Virus record (IMG/VR): IMGVR_UViG_3300024492_000057
Coordinates: 1 to 64,000 of that record
DNA: 64,000 nucleotides
Source of the DNA: a virus
Strand: one strand, 5' to 3'
How positions within the stretch are numbered: the first letter of the stretch is position 1; each line of letters opens with the position of its first letter. Under the pieces are notes generated by a model, which made no database searches, was not told the DNA's origin, and saw only the letters and a program-made list of their open reading frames with translations. Below, in pieces: positions 8,380 through 25,613 of the stretch. The position numbers were made by a program, and so were the translations under genes.

Positions 8380-8990
8380 AATACATACATTCAACCCCCA
8401 ATGGAGAAGCTTTAATTGCGTACTGCGCAAGGGTTAGTTCACCGAATCAAGATAATCCAGATTATGAAAAACTCCTAAAGTATCTTATAACCCATAAACA
8501 TTGGAGTCCTTTCCAAATGGCAACCCTTTGCCTAGAAATTACTACTTCTAGAGCAATTGCACAACAAATTCTACGGCATCGTTCGTTCTCATTTCAAGAA
8601 TTTTCACAACGCTATGCTCAAGCATTAGACGTAGAAATGTATGAAGCTCGGCGTCAAGACGTTAAGAACCGTCAGAACTCAATTGACGATCTACCAGATG
8701 ACGTTAAACAATGGTTTAAACAAGCCCAAGAAGATACCTGGGATGAATCATATAGCTTGTATATACAGGCATTAGATAAGGGTATTGCAAAAGAATGCGC
8801 TCGCGGATTATTACCCCTCAACACACAAACTCGCATCTACATGCATGGAACTATACGGGATTGGATCCATTATTGTGAAGTTAGATGCGATAAATCTACG
8901 CAGCTAGAACACAGAGAAATTGCGGAAGAATGTAAGAAGATATTACTTAAAGAGTACCCTGCAACCGGAAAGGCTTTGGGATGGGTATAA
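8370..8990 (+). CDS. thyX: FAD-dependent thymidylate synthase ThyX
   Basis: Makes dTMP from dUMP with methylene-tetrahydrofolate and FAD/NADPH. The signature RHRxxSxxxxSxRY is complete (R69 H70 R71, S74, S79, R81, Y82). At 206 aa it fits the family (about 200-250). It sits with class II RNR and, further right, dUTPase (which supplies dUMP), completing a dTTP branch that does not depend on host ThyA. It overlaps the release-factor-like gene by 10 nt, so the two are co-expressed. Confidence 0.93.
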
Positions 8991-9313
8991 AAAAGAAGTT
9001 ATGGTTCTCTATTACTGAGAAAGACTGCAGATTTATAGCTAAACGCGGTAGCGGTAAAGGAGGGCAAAAGAAAAATAAAACTTCTAACGCTATTCAATGT
9101 TTTCACGATCCATCTGGGGCAATGGGTGAATCTGAAGATGGAAGTATACAAAGCCTTAATAAACGTACAGCATTTCAACGTATGGTTGCTACTAAAGAAT
9201 TTCAAAGCTGGTTAAATTTAAAAATTGAAGCCGGTAAAGGTAATGTTGAAATTACAGAGGAAACAGATTTAGGTAATAAAGTAACTCGTAAATTAAGATT
9301 AGATGAAGTTTAA
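8981..9313 (+). CDS. stand-alone GGQ-domain peptidyl-tRNA hydrolase (release-factor-like, ArfB/PrfH-type)
   Basis: The protein is just the catalytic domain of class I release factors: [20 protein letters not shown] holds the GGQ (residues 27-29) that hydrolyses peptidyl-tRNA, followed by the usual N-K-T and the strand-helix ending in an Arg/Lys-rich helix. There is no stop-codon-recognition domain (110 aa against about 360). Known relatives of this kind rescue stalled ribosomes (ArfB) or act on damaged ribosomes (PrfH). The basic C-terminal tail of ArfB is not obvious here; the end is [19 protein letters not shown]. Overlap with thyX shows coordinated translation. The structured RNA immediately downstream and the tmRNA-like RNA at 3.5 kb hint at a rescue function during infection (inference). 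Confidence 0.82.
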
Positions 9314-14932: not shown

Positions 14933-15382
14933 ATGATAATTTATTTAACAAAAGGTTTCTATACTTTAGTCGATAATGAAGATTATAGTTTTTTAAATCA
15001 ATATAAATGGTATTATAAAAACGGATATGCGGCAAGACATAATCCCGACAAATCTCCAAAGCATATTTTAATGCATAAACAAATATTAAATCAATCTAAT
15101 TTTATTGATCATATTAATGGAAATAAATTAGATAATAGAAAAAGTAATCTTAGAGTTGCAACTAAATCGCAGAATGCTGCCAATAGTAGAAAAAGAAAAG
15201 GTAGTTCTAAGTTTAAAGGTGTTTATTGGGATAAAAGTAAAAATAAATGGAAAGCAGCCATTGGATTTAAAAATAAAAGAATTACAATAGGAAGATTTTC
15301 TTCAGAACTAGAAGCAGCTAAAGCATATAATAAAGCAGCAATTGAATATTTCGGTGAATTTGCAAGGTTAAACAATGTATAA
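14933..15382 (+). CDS. HNH endonuclease with AP2-like DNA-binding domain (free-standing homing type)
   Basis: HNH core: the DHINGNKLDNRKSNLRVAT block (His/Asn metal site and N-x8-N spacing), about residues 60-80. The C-terminal KFKGVYWDKSKNKWKAAIGF followed by GRFSSELEAAKAYNKAAIEY is an AP2-type DNA-binding domain, the standard partner in phage HNH homing enzymes. The gene stands between otherwise tightly packed replication genes, has no good ribosome binding site and is AT-richer than its neighbours, all consistent with an invasion. It overlaps the next gene by 8 nt. Confidence 0.88.
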   Translation: MIIYLTKGFYTLVDNEDYSFLNQYKWYYKNGYAARHNPDKSPKHILMHKQILNQSNFIDHINGNKLDNRKSNLRVATKSQNAANSRKRKGSSKFKGVYWDKSKNKWKAAIGFKNKRITIGRFSSELEAAKAYNKAAIEYFGEFARLNNV

Positions 15383-15758: not shown

Positions 15759-17696
15759 ATGCAATTGTACCAAGTTTTTAAAGAAGGTCTTTCTTCTAAG
15801 CCTAAATTTATTCCCTACCCCGGTGAACTTCCCACCTTAGACATTAACCGCGATTACTACATTTCCCTATTCCAATACGACGAAGCTCAACGTAAACTAG
15901 CTGAAACCAAAGGTTCATTAGCCGGTATTAAGGACACTACTACTGACAAGCTTTATTTCGACTTCGACTCGAAAAATGATCTTGAAGCCGCTCGTAAAGA
16001 TGCACTCACGCTTGCACAACGGCTCGTAGATCGTGGAGTAGACCCGGATGATATCCACGCAGCATTCACGGGGTCAAAGGGGTTCTCCGTTGAAATTAAG
16101 CTCAATAAACGCATCTCTAACGAACAATTCAAAGCAGCAGTACAAAAATTAGCTGGCGATCTTAAAACGTTCGATCATGTTGTAAGCGATCCTAATCGTA
16201 TTGTACGTATTGATTATACTCGTCATAATAAATCCGGCAATTTAAAACTACCACTAAAAGTATATGAGCTAGATGAATGGCCACTAGAGGATATTCTAAA
16301 TACTTCTAAGACAATTAAACACGTTGCCGGTTATACCCAGAAAATTAAACCTGTAGCGCTTCAAGACGATCTATTCATCATACCTCAAAAGAAAAAAGAA
16401 AAGGTTGAAATTACTGGAGATTTAGAAGAAGCTCTAGAACGTCTTCCTAAAGGTTGGAAGAATTACAAGTGGGCACTAGCTAGCGGTTTCTTTGAACCTG
16501 GCGAACGTCACAACGCTCTAATGGTAATCGCTGCTACCTGTAGAGGTCTAGGATACGACAAAGATACAGCTTACTATATCTGTAAAGCTGCAATGAAAAA
16601 GCAAGCAGCTCGAAGCGGATCCGATGAATTTCCTAAAGACGAGTTATACGAGAATATCATCGATAAGTCTGTATATTCTGATAACTGGGAAGGTGGACAA
16701 TACTCCCCACAGACTAACCCTTGGTTAAAATCCTATTGTGAACGAATGGGATTCGAAGTTAAGAAGGAAGAAGAAACTAAAGCTCGACGTATTCAAGATA
16801 TTCAAGACGAATTTAAGAATTTCGTTGAAAATATTGAAGAAAATACGATTCTAACCGGAATTCCTTGTCTAGATCAGGCAATGCCGATTACTATCGGAAT
16901 GAATTTAGGGATTGTAGGCGCTGCTAGCTCCGGTAAAACTGCATTGGCTCTAGAAATCCTTAAGAATACCAGTAAAGCTGGAATTGTATCTGTATTTGCT
17001 AGTCTAGACATGCATAGAAATCGTTTATTTGAAAAACTACTATACAAAACTACCGGATTAAGCAGAGGAGAGCTATATGCAAAAGTCCAAGCAGGAGAAA
17101 TCGAAGAAATTACCAAGAAAATCAAAGAAGATTATGCAAACGTCTGGTTTTACGACAGAAGTTGCCCTACAGTTGGTAACATTAGGGAATATATTGAGGA
17201 GGTCGAAGCTGAAACCGGGAAAAAAGTTAAACTCGTTATGCTCGATTATTTCGAACGAGTTAACTCAGATAAGTCAGAAGATACAGCAGCTTCAAAAGAT
17301 ATCGCAGGACAGCTCCAGGACGTAGTAAATGACTTCAACGTTGCAATGGTTACCCTTGTACAGCCTAACAAATTCAGTCTGGGGAGTGGACCCGACAAGC
17401 CAATTAAGAGTTACACAGCTATTAAAGGATCAAGCTTCTTATACCAATCCTTTCGTAGTATTGTCTCTATCTGGCGACCATTCTTTACCCCGGAAACCGT
17501 TGACAAAGACAAGTTTCTACAAATGGCGATCCTCAAGAACGACCTTGGAGAGCTTGGAATGTTTAACTTCGCCTGGTCAGGAAAACGCGGAGAAATCCGA
17601 GAAGTAACTGAAGAAGAAGAAGCGGAATTGAATTACCTATTAGAGCAGAAGAAAGCTGCTGAAAGCAATGCTAAATCAGAAAGTGGCTGGGAATAA
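15759..17696 (+). CDS. primase-helicase fusion: archaeo-eukaryotic-type primase plus DnaB-like helicase
   Basis: The N-terminal domain (about 1-200) has AEP primase motifs: LYFDFDS with D68/D70, FTGSKGFSVEI at 103-113 (motif II, with Ser where His is usual), and RIVRIDYTRH (motif III Asp152). A middle helical region (230-310) resembles PriCT-type domains. The C-terminal RecA-fold domain has Walker A GAASSGKT (387-394), Walker B LVMLDYF (492-498) and a Q-containing VTLVQPNK, as in DnaB/SF4 helicases. It primes and unwinds at the fork for the PolB downstream. Phages more often pair DnaB helicases with TOPRIM (DnaG-type) primases, so the AEP fusion is noteworthy. A good RBS (GAGGAGAC) precedes ATG. 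Confidence 0.85.
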   Translation: MQLYQVFKEGLSSKPKFIPYPGELPTLDINRDYYISLFQYDEAQRKLAETKGSLAGIKDTTTDKLYFDFDSKNDLEAARKDALTLAQRLVDRGVDPDDIHAAFTGSKGFSVEIKLNKRISNEQFKAAVQKLAGDLKTFDHVVSDPNRIVRIDYTRHNKSGNLKLPLKVYELDEWPLEDILNTSKTIKHVAGYTQKIKPVALQDDLFIIPQKKKEKVEITGDLEEALERLPKGWKNYKWALASGFFEPGERHNALMVIAATCRGLGYDKDTAYYICKAAMKKQAARSGSDEFPKDELYENIIDKSVYSDNWEGGQYSPQTNPWLKSYCERMGFEVKKEEETKARRIQDIQDEFKNFVENIEENTILTGIPCLDQAMPITIGMNLGIVGAASSGKTALALEILKNTSKAGIVSVFASLDMHRNRLFEKLLYKTTGLSRGELYAKVQAGEIEEITKKIKEDYANVWFYDRSCPTVGNIREYIEEVEAETGKKVKLVMLDYFERVNSDKSEDTAASKDIAGQLQDVVNDFNVAMVTLVQPNKFSLGSGPDKPIKSYTAIKGSSFLYQSFRSIVSIWRPFFTPETVDKDKFLQMAILKNDLGELGMFNFAWSGKRGEIREVTEEEEAELNYLLEQKKAAESNAKSESGWE

Positions 17697-19215: not shown

Positions 19216-19398
19216 ATGTCAATGCGAATCTGTTGTGGAACCGACCAACACAAACCCCATAGACCAGACTGTGAACGCGAAATTGAATGGCGTAGGCGAC
19301 AAAATGAACGAGATAGAGAAGCTCGTAAACGGCAAGGACAAAACCGAAAAGGTCGTCAGCGTGGAGATAAAAGATCACCAAGCGACCCTATTTATTGA
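19216..19398 (+). CDS. Arg-rich Cys protein, 60 aa, overprinted on the polymerase N-terminus
   Basis: MSMRICCGTDQHKPHRPDCE then an Arg-rich helix (RRRQNERDREARKRQG). The Cys/His spacing could bind zinc. It overlaps the polymerase frame by up to 164 nt. In the overlap this frame uses A/T-ending codons typical of the phage (CGT, CGA, CAA, GAA, AGA), whereas the polymerase frame there is unusually rich in G/C-ending codons (GAG, AAG, GTC, GGC), which argues that this small gene is genuine. Function is unknown, though nucleic-acid binding is plausible from the basic tail. Confidence 0.5.
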   Translation: MSMRICCGTDQHKPHRPDCEREIEWRRRQNERDREARKRQGQNRKGRQRGDKRSPSDPIY

Positions 19399-20824
19399 AA
19401 ATAATGGCGAAGTTACTGAAAAAATCATCAAAAATCGCTTCTATGTCCTTGTACCTACACCTATTAGAGGATCGGTTAAACTGGGCGGAAATCTGTATTA
19501 CAAGTACGGATTACAGTTTTCGAAGAAAGATGAGTGGAATAAGTGTATTCAAGATCTCAGACGACGAAGAACCGATCTGTATGCCTGCTTTAATGAAAAA
19601 GAAGCACTATTAATTAAGGATGGAATCACTTATTTCAAGGGAATGAAGCATACCGAGCCTTCAATCCTATCATTTGATATTGAATCTACTGGATTATTTC
19701 ATAATAACGATTCAAAAGTTCTACTTATATCCAATACATATCGAAACCAAGGAAAAGTAGAAAGAAAGTTATTTGCCTATGATGATTATAATTCACAAGG
19801 CGAAATGCTTATCGCTTGGGCTAAATGGGTAAAAACTTGTAATCCGGCGATAATCTGCGCCCATAACGGTTATAGTTTCGATTTACCTTATATTAATTAT
19901 ATCGCTCAAAAAGAGGGAGTAGAATTAAAACTAGGACGAGATGATTCTCCGTTATATATTTCAGAAAAACCTTCTAAATTTCGAATTGACGGTAGCCGTG
20001 AACAAGAATACCACAAAGTAAAAGTCTACGGTAGAGAAGTTATTGATACATACTTCCTAGCCATTAAGCACGATATTGTCGCTAAAAAGTATGAAAGCTA
20101 CGGACTAAAGCAAATTATTAAAGCTGAAGGGCTAGAGAAAAAAGATCGAGTCCATTATGACAGCTCTCAAATTCGATTTAATTACACCAATCCAACCGAG
20201 TGGGAAAAGATTAAAGAATACTGTATACACGATGCAGATGATGCATTAGCTGTATACGATCTTACCGCACCTGCCACATTCTATCTAACACAATCAATTC
20301 CTAAACCTTTTCAAGCGATGGTTGAATCTGCAACAGGTTCACAAATCAACGTTATGATGATCCGAAGTTACCTTCAGGATGGTCATAGTATTCCTAAACC
20401 GGATCCTATGGAAAAGTTCCCTGGAGCTATTTCACTGGGTAATCCCGGTGTATATAATAATTGCTTAAAATGGGACGTAGCATCTCTTTATCCATCTATT
20501 ATCTTAACATATAAAGTATATGATCAAGATAAAGATCCTAATGGAAACTTCCTCAAGATTATAGAAAAGCTAACCGAAGAACGACTAAAGAATAAAAGAC
20601 TAGCTAAAGAAACCGGGGATCCTTATTACGAAGGATTACAGAACGCTCAGAAAATTGTTATTAACTCAGGGTATGGATTTTTAGGAGCTAGCGGATTACA
20701 TTTTAATTGTAGAGAAGCTGCAGATTTTATTACCGCTAAGGGAAGAGAAATTCTAACAACCGCGATCGAATGGGCAACTAAAGAAAAGTTTATTTGGGAA
20801 GCTACGGCGCACGATGACCTTTAA
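19235..20824 (+). CDS. family B DNA polymerase, N-terminal fragment (exonuclease, motifs A and B)
   Basis: Replicative polymerase. Numbered from GTG 19235: 3'-5' exonuclease motifs FDIES (D148/E150), HNGYSFDLPYI (N211, D216) and YCIHDADD (Y329, D333); polymerase motif A DVASLYPS (414-421) and motif B KIVINSGYGFLGA (K473, Y480-G481). It stops at TAA 20822 before motif C, which is in the next frame. A +1 slip on CTT TAA would fuse the two. The start is uncertain: GTG 19235, or ATG 19304, which still leaves a 95-nt overlap with the Arg-rich gene. The exonuclease looks active. No TPR1/TPR2 protein-priming insert is recognised. Confidence 0.85.
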   Translation: MEPTNTNPIDQTVNAKLNGVGDKMNEIEKLVNGKDKTEKVVSVEIKDHQATLFIENNGEVTEKIIKNRFYVLVPTPIRGSVKLGGNLYYKYGLQFSKKDEWNKCIQDLRRRRTDLYACFNEKEALLIKDGITYFKGMKHTEPSILSFDIESTGLFHNNDSKVLLISNTYRNQGKVERKLFAYDDYNSQGEMLIAWAKWVKTCNPAIICAHNGYSFDLPYINYIAQKEGVELKLGRDDSPLYISEKPSKFRIDGSREQEYHKVKVYGREVIDTYFLAIKHDIVAKKYESYGLKQIIKAEGLEKKDRVHYDSSQIRFNYTNPTEWEKIKEYCIHDADDALAVYDLTAPATFYLTQSIPKPFQAMVESATGSQINVMMIRSYLQDGHSIPKPDPMEKFPGAISLGNPGVYNNCLKWDVASLYPSIILTYKVYDQDKDPNGNFLKIIEKLTEERLKNKRLAKETGDPYYEGLQNAQKIVINSGYGFLGASGLHFNCREAADFITAKGREILTTAIEWATKEKFIWEATAHDDL

Positions 20825-21491
20825 ATTAGTAAACGCAGATACAGACAGTATTACGATATGTAAACCAGATGGTTCACCGTTCTCAGAAGAAGAACAAAAG
20901 AAGTATCTTGAACAACTAAACGCCTTATTTCCATCAACTATATCATGGGAAGATGACGGATATTATAAAAAAGTAGTAGTTTTAAAAGCAAAGAACTATA
21001 TCACTCAAACTCAAAAAGATAAAGTTAAAATCAAAGGTAGTGCATTAAAAGCCACTTCAAAATCCCCTGCGATGAAAGAAATGATTAATCGTATTATTCA
21101 ATCAATCTTGGATAATAAAAATGATTTTCAGGATATATACCATGAATATATTAAAGAAGCTTGTAATGTAAAAGACATTAAACGTTGGTCATCCCGTAAA
21201 ACTATTAGCGAAAAGACACTCAATTCCCAACGTACAAACGAATCTAAAATACGAGATGCTATTGAAGGAACTGAAATTGTAGAAGGTGACCGTTGCTGGC
21301 TATATTTCGATAAAGACGATAACCTTAAGCTAGCTGAACAATTCGATGGTAATTATAACGTTGACAAATTGCTTCAGAATTGCTACGATACTATATGGGT
21401 ATTCGAAAGCATATTAGATTGCGATACTCTATTTAAAAACTTTAAGCTTAAACGTAATAAAAAAGATCTAGAGGTATTATTAAATGGATAA
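20814..21491 (+). CDS. family B DNA polymerase, C-terminal fragment (motif C and thumb)
   Basis: Begins MTFKLVNADTDSITI, with motif C DTDS (D9, D11), the second catalytic Asp pair, then LKAKNYI (the KxKKY-type motif near residue 60) and a helical thumb. Alone it cannot polymerise, so it must assemble with the upstream fragment or be made by +1 frameshifting. Its ATG lies 11 nt before the upstream stop and has no convincing ribosome binding site. Continuity across the junction (HDDL then KLVNADTDS) has no missing residues, so the break is recent, programmed or a sequencing error. Confidence 0.85.
   Translation: MTFKLVNADTDSITICKPDGSPFSEEEQKKYLEQLNALFPSTISWEDDGYYKKVVVLKAKNYITQTQKDKVKIKGSALKATSKSPAMKEMINRIIQSILDNKNDFQDIYHEYIKEACNVKDIKRWSSRKTISEKTLNSQRTNESKIRDAIEGTEIVEGDRCWLYFDKDDNLKLAEQFDGNYNVDKLLQNCYDTIWVFESILDCDTLFKNFKLKRNKKDLEVLLNG
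20819..20825 (+). promoter_or_regulatory. candidate +1 frameshift site CTT TAA A in the polymerase gene
   Basis: The last sense codon CTT and stop TAA of the upstream polymerase frame are followed by A. Slippage of the Leu tRNA from CUU to UUU skips one base and continues AAA TTA GTA AAC GCA GAT, in the frame of the second fragment. This is the geometry of the prfB (RF2) site CUU UGA C. The AGGGGG-type stimulator of prfB is not seen three nt upstream, which weakens the case. Confidence 0.5.
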
Positions 21492-24827: not shown

Positions 24828-25613
24828 ATGAAACGACCCAAGATACTTTTACTCGACATTGAAACTGCGCCCTTAACTGGATACTTCTGGCGATTATTTG
24901 AAGAACAGGGTGGAACATCTATGTTGGATGGGGATTGGTTCCTACTTTCCTGGAGTGCTAAGTGGTACGATCAGGATAAAGTTATGTATATGGACCAACG
25001 CAATGCTAAAGATCTAGAAAATGAAAAGAAAATTCTAATCCCACTAAGAGCGCTAATGGAGCAAGCCGATATTATTATTGGACATAATGGTGATCGTTTC
25101 GACATTAAACGAATTAATACCCGAATTCAATTCCATAATCTAGAACCATTAATTAAAGGCATAGATTATCGTACAATTGATACACTTAAAATTGCTAAAA
25201 AACACTTTGACTTTACTTCCAATAAACTAGAATACCTAGCAAAATTCTTAGGTTGTAAACAACGAAAAACTAAATCTAAAGTATTTCCAGGCGTTGAACT
25301 TTGGAAAGAATGCTTAAAACGAAATAAAGAAGCATTTAAAGAAATGGAAGCATATAATCGCCAAGACGTTCTGACTCTTCAGGATGTATATGATAAATTA
25401 AAAGCTTGGGATAGTTCAATTAACTTTTCCGTATTTAACGAAGGTGAACACGTATGCAGCTGCGGTGAAACTAAGCTTATTAAAAAGGGATTAACCGCAA
25501 CAAATTCAGGAGTATTTCAAAGATATAAATGCTCGAATTGCGGTAAACCACACAAATCCAAGATAAATCAATTAACTAAAGAACAAAAGAAAAAATTAAG
25601 GGAAGTAAAGTAA
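24828..25613 (+). CDS. DEDD-type 3'-5' exonuclease with C-terminal zinc ribbon
   Basis: Exo I LLLDIETAP (D10/E12), exo II IIIGHNGDRFDIKR (N-x-x-F-D) and exo III AYNRQDVLTL (Y-x3-D) make a complete DnaQ/PolB-type (RNase H-like) exonuclease. Residues about 208-245 add a zinc ribbon: CSCGETK...YKCSNCGKPHK. At 261 aa it is free-standing. The polymerase fragment has its own intact exonuclease, so this enzyme likely serves repair, recombination or RNA/DNA end trimming. It is followed by a TAATG overlap with the dUTPase gene. Confidence 0.85.
   Translation: MKRPKILLLDIETAPLTGYFWRLFEEQGGTSMLDGDWFLLSWSAKWYDQDKVMYMDQRNAKDLENEKKILIPLRALMEQADIIIGHNGDRFDIKRINTRIQFHNLEPLIKGIDYRTIDTLKIAKKHFDFTSNKLEYLAKFLGCKQRKTKSKVFPGVELWKECLKRNKEAFKEMEAYNRQDVLTLQDVYDKLKAWDSSINFSVFNEGEHVCSCGETKLIKKGLTATNSGVFQRYKCSNCGKPHKSKINQLTKEQKKKLREVK

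Follow-up and report, generated by a model that had tools for sequence, protein, structure and literature searches.

Analysis of a 64,000-nucleotide stretch of viral DNA (the window), which represents most of one 67.8 kb virus record, identified a family B DNA polymerase (PolB) gene divided into two overlapping open reading frames (ORFs) between polymerase motifs B and C (Table 1). The gene is likely to be truly split, and to work as two chains produced by the ordinary translation of overlapping genes. The same junction was interrupted in 23 other homologous loci, and the loop between motifs B and C is most likely a recurrent site of gene fission and a hot spot for mobile elements.

Table 1. 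Features of the split polymerase gene and of a free-standing endonuclease gene in the window.
Feature	Position	Strand	Basis or remarks
Large half of family B DNA polymerase	19304..20824	+	506 aa from ATG 19304
Large-half domains: N-terminal domain, 3'-5' exonuclease, motifs A and B	19304..20824	+	
Motif A, DVASLYPSI	20474..20500	+	sequence; invariant D390/S393/Y395/P396
Motif B, KIVINSGYG	20651..20677	+	sequence; invariant K449/N453/S454/G457
Approximately 31 nt extra relative to the 10-residue loop of intact relatives	20792..20822	+	alignment; ends inferred
Small half of polymerase	20814..21491	+	225 aa; own ATG; motif C and C-terminal palm/thumb
11-nt overlap ATGACCTTTAA	20814..20824	+	small-half start, large-half stop
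Motif C, DTDS	20838..20849	+	sequence; invariant D511/T512/D513
Free-standing HNH endonuclease with AP2 domain	14933..15382	+	Pfam; replication gene cluster, not at the cut

The frame of the large half ends with CAC GAT GAC CTT TAA, and the other frame reads AAA TTA GTA AAC GCA GAT ACA GAC AGT (KLVNADTDS). Family B polymerase Pfam models matched both ORFs; the first matched the exonuclease and positions 117-202 of the polymerase-domain profile, and the second matched positions 222-348. The 3'-5' exonuclease motifs, DxxSLYPS, KxxxNSxYG and DTDS of a family B polymerase are all present, and every residue that is invariant across 44 sequences is retained in the two halves. The preliminary description of this DNA had placed the break at CTT TAA, with the exonuclease and motifs A and B upstream of it, and both points were confirmed. 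It had also let the downstream frame begin at motif C; the motif is indeed present, but the frame has an ATG of its own within the overlap, which had gone unmentioned. An alternative start for the large half (GTG 19235) would yield 529 aa; ATG 19304 agrees with the aligned start positions of the relatives.

The Shine-Dalgarno match ahead of the small-half ATG was weak and distant (GGGAAG, approximately 14 nt upstream). Of 97 same-strand neighbouring gene pairs in the window, 59 overlap, four of them by exactly 11 nt, and the polymerase junction thus resembles any other gene boundary of this genome. The small half alone matched no phage record at 1e-5, and a search of viral contigs for the identical junction sequence found no second copy of the allele. 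Nothing else in the record matched the profile of family B polymerases.

A structural model was built as one read-through chain using an alignment of intact relatives, and as such it locates the cut and says nothing on the assembly of two chains. The model was a confident PolB (mean pLDDT of 92.4) with a family B fold (Z of 25-32 to solved family B polymerases over ~650 residues), the closest structure being an archaeal-type PolB (Z of 32.4, rmsd of 3.6 over 652 residues). The pLDDT fell below 50 only at residues 494-501, the junction itself, which lies between a helix (residues 469-491) and the strand of motif C (residues 506-511). This places the cut in a flexible loop adjoining the active site, between the helix that follows motif B and the beta strand of motif C.

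Relatives were collected by scanning viral contigs, using both single sequences and alignments, and by one scan of prokaryote genomes. This yielded 71 distinct homologous loci, the window included, each with both polymerase parts. The gene was one ORF in 45 loci, split at the same junction in 24 (with the window) and broken elsewhere in two. This one loop is where 24 of the 26 broken genes are interrupted, a position far beyond chance. The two exceptions (L028 and L141), broken in the motif A and motif B regions, look like sequencing indels. The closest relative (L055; 65% and 59% identity) is intact. The two ORFs together correspond to one ancestral protein, with intact orthologues in the relatives, and the outgroup isolates were likewise intact. 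Two of the relatives sit in contigs of 73 and 81 kb belonging to Bacteroidia/Bacteroidales MAGs, and the nearest isolates are Salinibacter phages; the host is likely a member of the Bacteroidota.

An endonuclease gene was present between the halves in seven of the 24 split loci, either of the GIY-YIG family (L003, L176, L188) or of the HNH type (L013, L022, L027, L130). Other sequence occupied the cut in nine (L004, L006, L007, L023, L042, L074, L102, L104, L124), and the gap between the halves in the 16 non-overlapping loci measured 32-1013 nt. The halves overlapped by 4-14 nt in the remaining eight (the window, L008, L010, L012, L034, L080, L110, L187). In each of the 24 split loci, the small half begins at a start codon that lies 8-12 codons ahead of DTD (ATG in 23 cases, TTG in one). 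The split of the L042 group recurs in separate contigs of four metagenomes, and that of the L080 group in two.

Two of the split loci showed a further arrangement. In L102 (4995-10670; IMGVR_UViG_3300019458_000004), the exonuclease region of the polymerase contains an intein that has LAGLIDADG parts, several small ORFs lie inside the usual cut ahead of motif C, and a second cut after motif C holds a GIY-YIG gene, giving a total of three polypeptides and the intein. In L008 (4663-5196), an HNH endonuclease gene lies directly behind the small half and overlaps its stop codon, while the cut is free of an endonuclease.

Exactly 10 residues separate the WA helix from DTD in all 31 short-loop intact genes, including L055, and 33-100 residues do so in the other 14; a loop of 11-32 residues was present in none of the 45. 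In the window, the helix is followed by TKEKF and a tail, IWEATAHDDL, that runs to the stop, and the other frame contributes MTF and KLVNA. TKEKF and KLVNA together make up the standard 10 residues. The additional ~31 nt are flanked by TTTA repeats, have a GC content of 52% versus 36%, and supply both the stop of the large half and the new ATG. A search for their source within the window gave a longest match of 10 nt, equal to that of shuffles, and no endonuclease remnant was recognisable in the 31 nt. The extra sequence may be a scar that a lost element left behind, or simply an insertion.

The flanks of the loop also differed between the classes of gene. An xG directly after the WA helix was found in 17 of 22 split genes, 13 of 14 long-loop intact genes and none of the 31 short-loop intact genes, and a [HYN][ND]F-like turn ahead of motif C in 17/22, 12/14 and 4/31, respectively. 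Long-loop intact polymerases with split-like flanks were observed in L009, L031, L038, L041, L045, L048, L050, L052, L092 and L146. The flanks of the window are of the short-loop type, unlike those of most other split genes, and for this reason its split seems, by sequence comparison, to be recent and independent of most of the others.

An error of sequencing or assembly, by which the true gene would be one frame with a loop ~10 residues longer that a small indel error has split, is unlikely. The allele comes from a single record, its closest relative is one ORF, and L028 and L141 show that such errors are present in the data set. However, those two error-like breaks lie elsewhere in the gene, and the break in the window lies exactly at the split site of 23 other loci, with the ATG placed where other split genes have theirs. 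Furthermore, the loop is ~31 nt longer and not merely shifted, and no intact relative has a loop of the intermediate length. In the comparison with relatives that the preliminary description had proposed, the closest relative is intact, and split relatives recur at the same loop without CTT TAA.

A programmed +1 frameshift on CTT TAA A, which had been suggested as a means of producing one full-length polymerase, is very unlikely. In the bacterial release factor 2 gene (prfB), CUU followed by a stop (CUU UGA C) is the site of a programmed +1 frameshift, and the window shows the same slip arrangement of CTT, a stop and a product that continues in the +1 frame. However, the window has no Shine-Dalgarno-like run just upstream of the CTT (GCGCACGATGAC) that could act as the stimulator does in prfB, and the stop context is TAA A rather than TGA C. 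The second ORF has its own start codon. Joining of the frames had been said to leave no residues missing, and none are lost, but the product would have ~10 more residues than the 10-residue loop of the 31 short-loop intact relatives. CTT TAA was found in none of the 23 other split loci, whose last sense codons and stops vary, and the 16 loci with 32-1013 nt between the halves could not be joined by any frameshift. The resemblance of CTT TAA to a slippery site is best attributed to chance.

A tree of 68 rows was built without the loop columns. The split/intact state changes at least 12 times on this tree, with nine changes forced by well-supported branches. With a length of 0.28, the end branch of the window does not exceed that of its intact sister L055 (0.30), and there is thus no sign of decay. 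A gene cut next to its active site can be a pseudogene, but it is extremely unlikely that the polymerase is a dead remnant and that another enzyme replicates the genome, given this branch length, two open frames of 506 and 225 codons, the retained invariant residues and the lack of another family B profile match in the record.

Post-translational joining of the halves by a split intein, or their joining by an intron at the RNA level, is hardly credible. Split inteins join the split PolB of Nanoarchaeum (PMC4104785) and are predicted in phage MIJ3 (PMC6892783), and L102, of the same clade as the window, carries an intein elsewhere in its polymerase gene; however, the ~15 residues after the WA helix and eight before DTD are too few for intein parts, and a Pfam scan of the polymerase ORFs of the window identified no intein domain. 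Because the two ORFs overlap, an intron is for practical purposes excluded.

The two-subunit polymerase, also among the options of the preliminary description, gained support from the 23 other loci with the same split, 16 of which have sequence between the halves. In the two-chain polymerase, ribosomes would terminate on the large half at TAA 20824 and initiate on the small half at ATG 20814, as they would at the majority of gene boundaries in a genome whose genes overlap so tightly. Both chains would fold together non-covalently into one polymerase, and the broken loop would be left as two free tails. Invariant active-site codons adjoin the loop, which would be a target of homing endonucleases; this may be why it has been invaded and cut repeatedly. 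The single record and the intact closest relative count against the two-chain reading, as do the failure to find a second copy of the allele, the lack of a recognisable endonuclease remnant in the 31 nt and the weak, distant Shine-Dalgarno match. An endonuclease gene is present in the cut of seven of the 23 other split relatives and absent from that of the window, and the window was therefore not filed as a proven endonuclease product. While the fracture of phage genes by homing endonucleases is already known, the literature searched yielded no description of the repeated splitting ahead of motif C seen in this clade.

The sequence around the cut differed between two otherwise nearly identical phages. 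In L024 (on the same contig as L003) the cut is occupied by a GIY-YIG gene, and in L020 (on the same contig as L006) by a 113-aa ORF. The two are 93-98% identical on either side, but gave no DNA alignment across the ~1.2 kb surrounding the cut. At the junction, protein identity drops from >90% to ~30%, and it reaches 100% again ~75 residues further on. Judged from the sequences, this tract, centred on the cut, appears conversion-like and fits the trace expected from co-conversion at a homing site, although ordinary recombination could also be its source.

The motif B/C loop may, tentatively, undergo a reversible cycle in which an intact short loop is invaded and split, the endonuclease is lost, the halves come to overlap and the gene is later re-fused; we regard this as possible rather than probable. 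The intact long-loop genes (33-100 residues) share their flank features with the split genes and not with the short-loop genes. Four of the 14 keep a methionine just ahead of motif C, which is possibly an old start codon. If the cycle is true, one active-site loop would be a readable record of the fission and fusion of an essential enzyme.

Split phage polymerases were previously known from a few single cases. Here, in a single clade of uncultivated phages that probably infect Bacteroidota, the same active-site loop has been cut many times. Endonuclease-bearing, endonuclease-free, overlapping and intact versions coexist, so that the way in which invasion leads to a stable enzyme of two subunits becomes directly testable. 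The loop also marks a point at which a compact PolB is split in nature, and annotators should note that breaks of this kind need not be errors.

Among the ORFs of the window that were scanned, the HNH/AP2 gene (Table 1) was the sole such Pfam match. It lies just upstream of the gene that precedes a DnaB-like helicase gene (15759-17696). The window also encodes a small release-factor-like protein of 110 aa with an RF-1 domain and a GGQ motif (8981-9313, + strand), and a second, separate polymerase-type exonuclease (24828-25613, + strand; PHROG 403, DNA polymerase exonuclease subunit).

Fractured genes were reportedly the subject of work by Dassa et al. in 2009, and a number of split enzymes can be compared with that of the window. 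The split PolB of the Methanobacteriales is likewise cut just before motif C. This enzyme, which is archaeal whereas that of the window is from a phage, also comprises two chains, neither of which suffices for activity (Kelman, Pietrokovski and Hurwitz 1999; PMC4104785), and its split has been ascribed to faulty intein excision (PMC4104785). In Aeromonas phage Aeh1, NrdA is split by the endonuclease gene mobE (PMC2988022); it is similarly an essential phage enzyme, divided by a free-standing HNH endonuclease gene and still functional, but is a ribonucleotide reductase and not a polymerase. Pseudomonas phage MIJ3 has a split PolB with an HNH gene in the cut and a predicted split intein (PMC6892783), and its halves would be joined by the split inteins, of which the window has none. 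The T4-related Aeromonas phages 25 and 44RR encode a family B polymerase in two adjacent genes, gp43A and gp43B (Petrov, Ratnayaka and Karam 2010, reviewed in PMC2988022), with a GIY-YIG gene in the cut of phage 25, whose 43A and 43B halves co-purify and show polymerase activity (PMC2988022), a precedent for the two-chain reading. In phage 25, 43A ends and 43B begins before motif B, and the cut falls in the fingers, after motif A and ahead of motif B, whereas the cut in the window lies between motifs B and C. The polymerases are only distantly related, and the one or two cases in those phages contrast with the many recurrent splits in the clade of the window.
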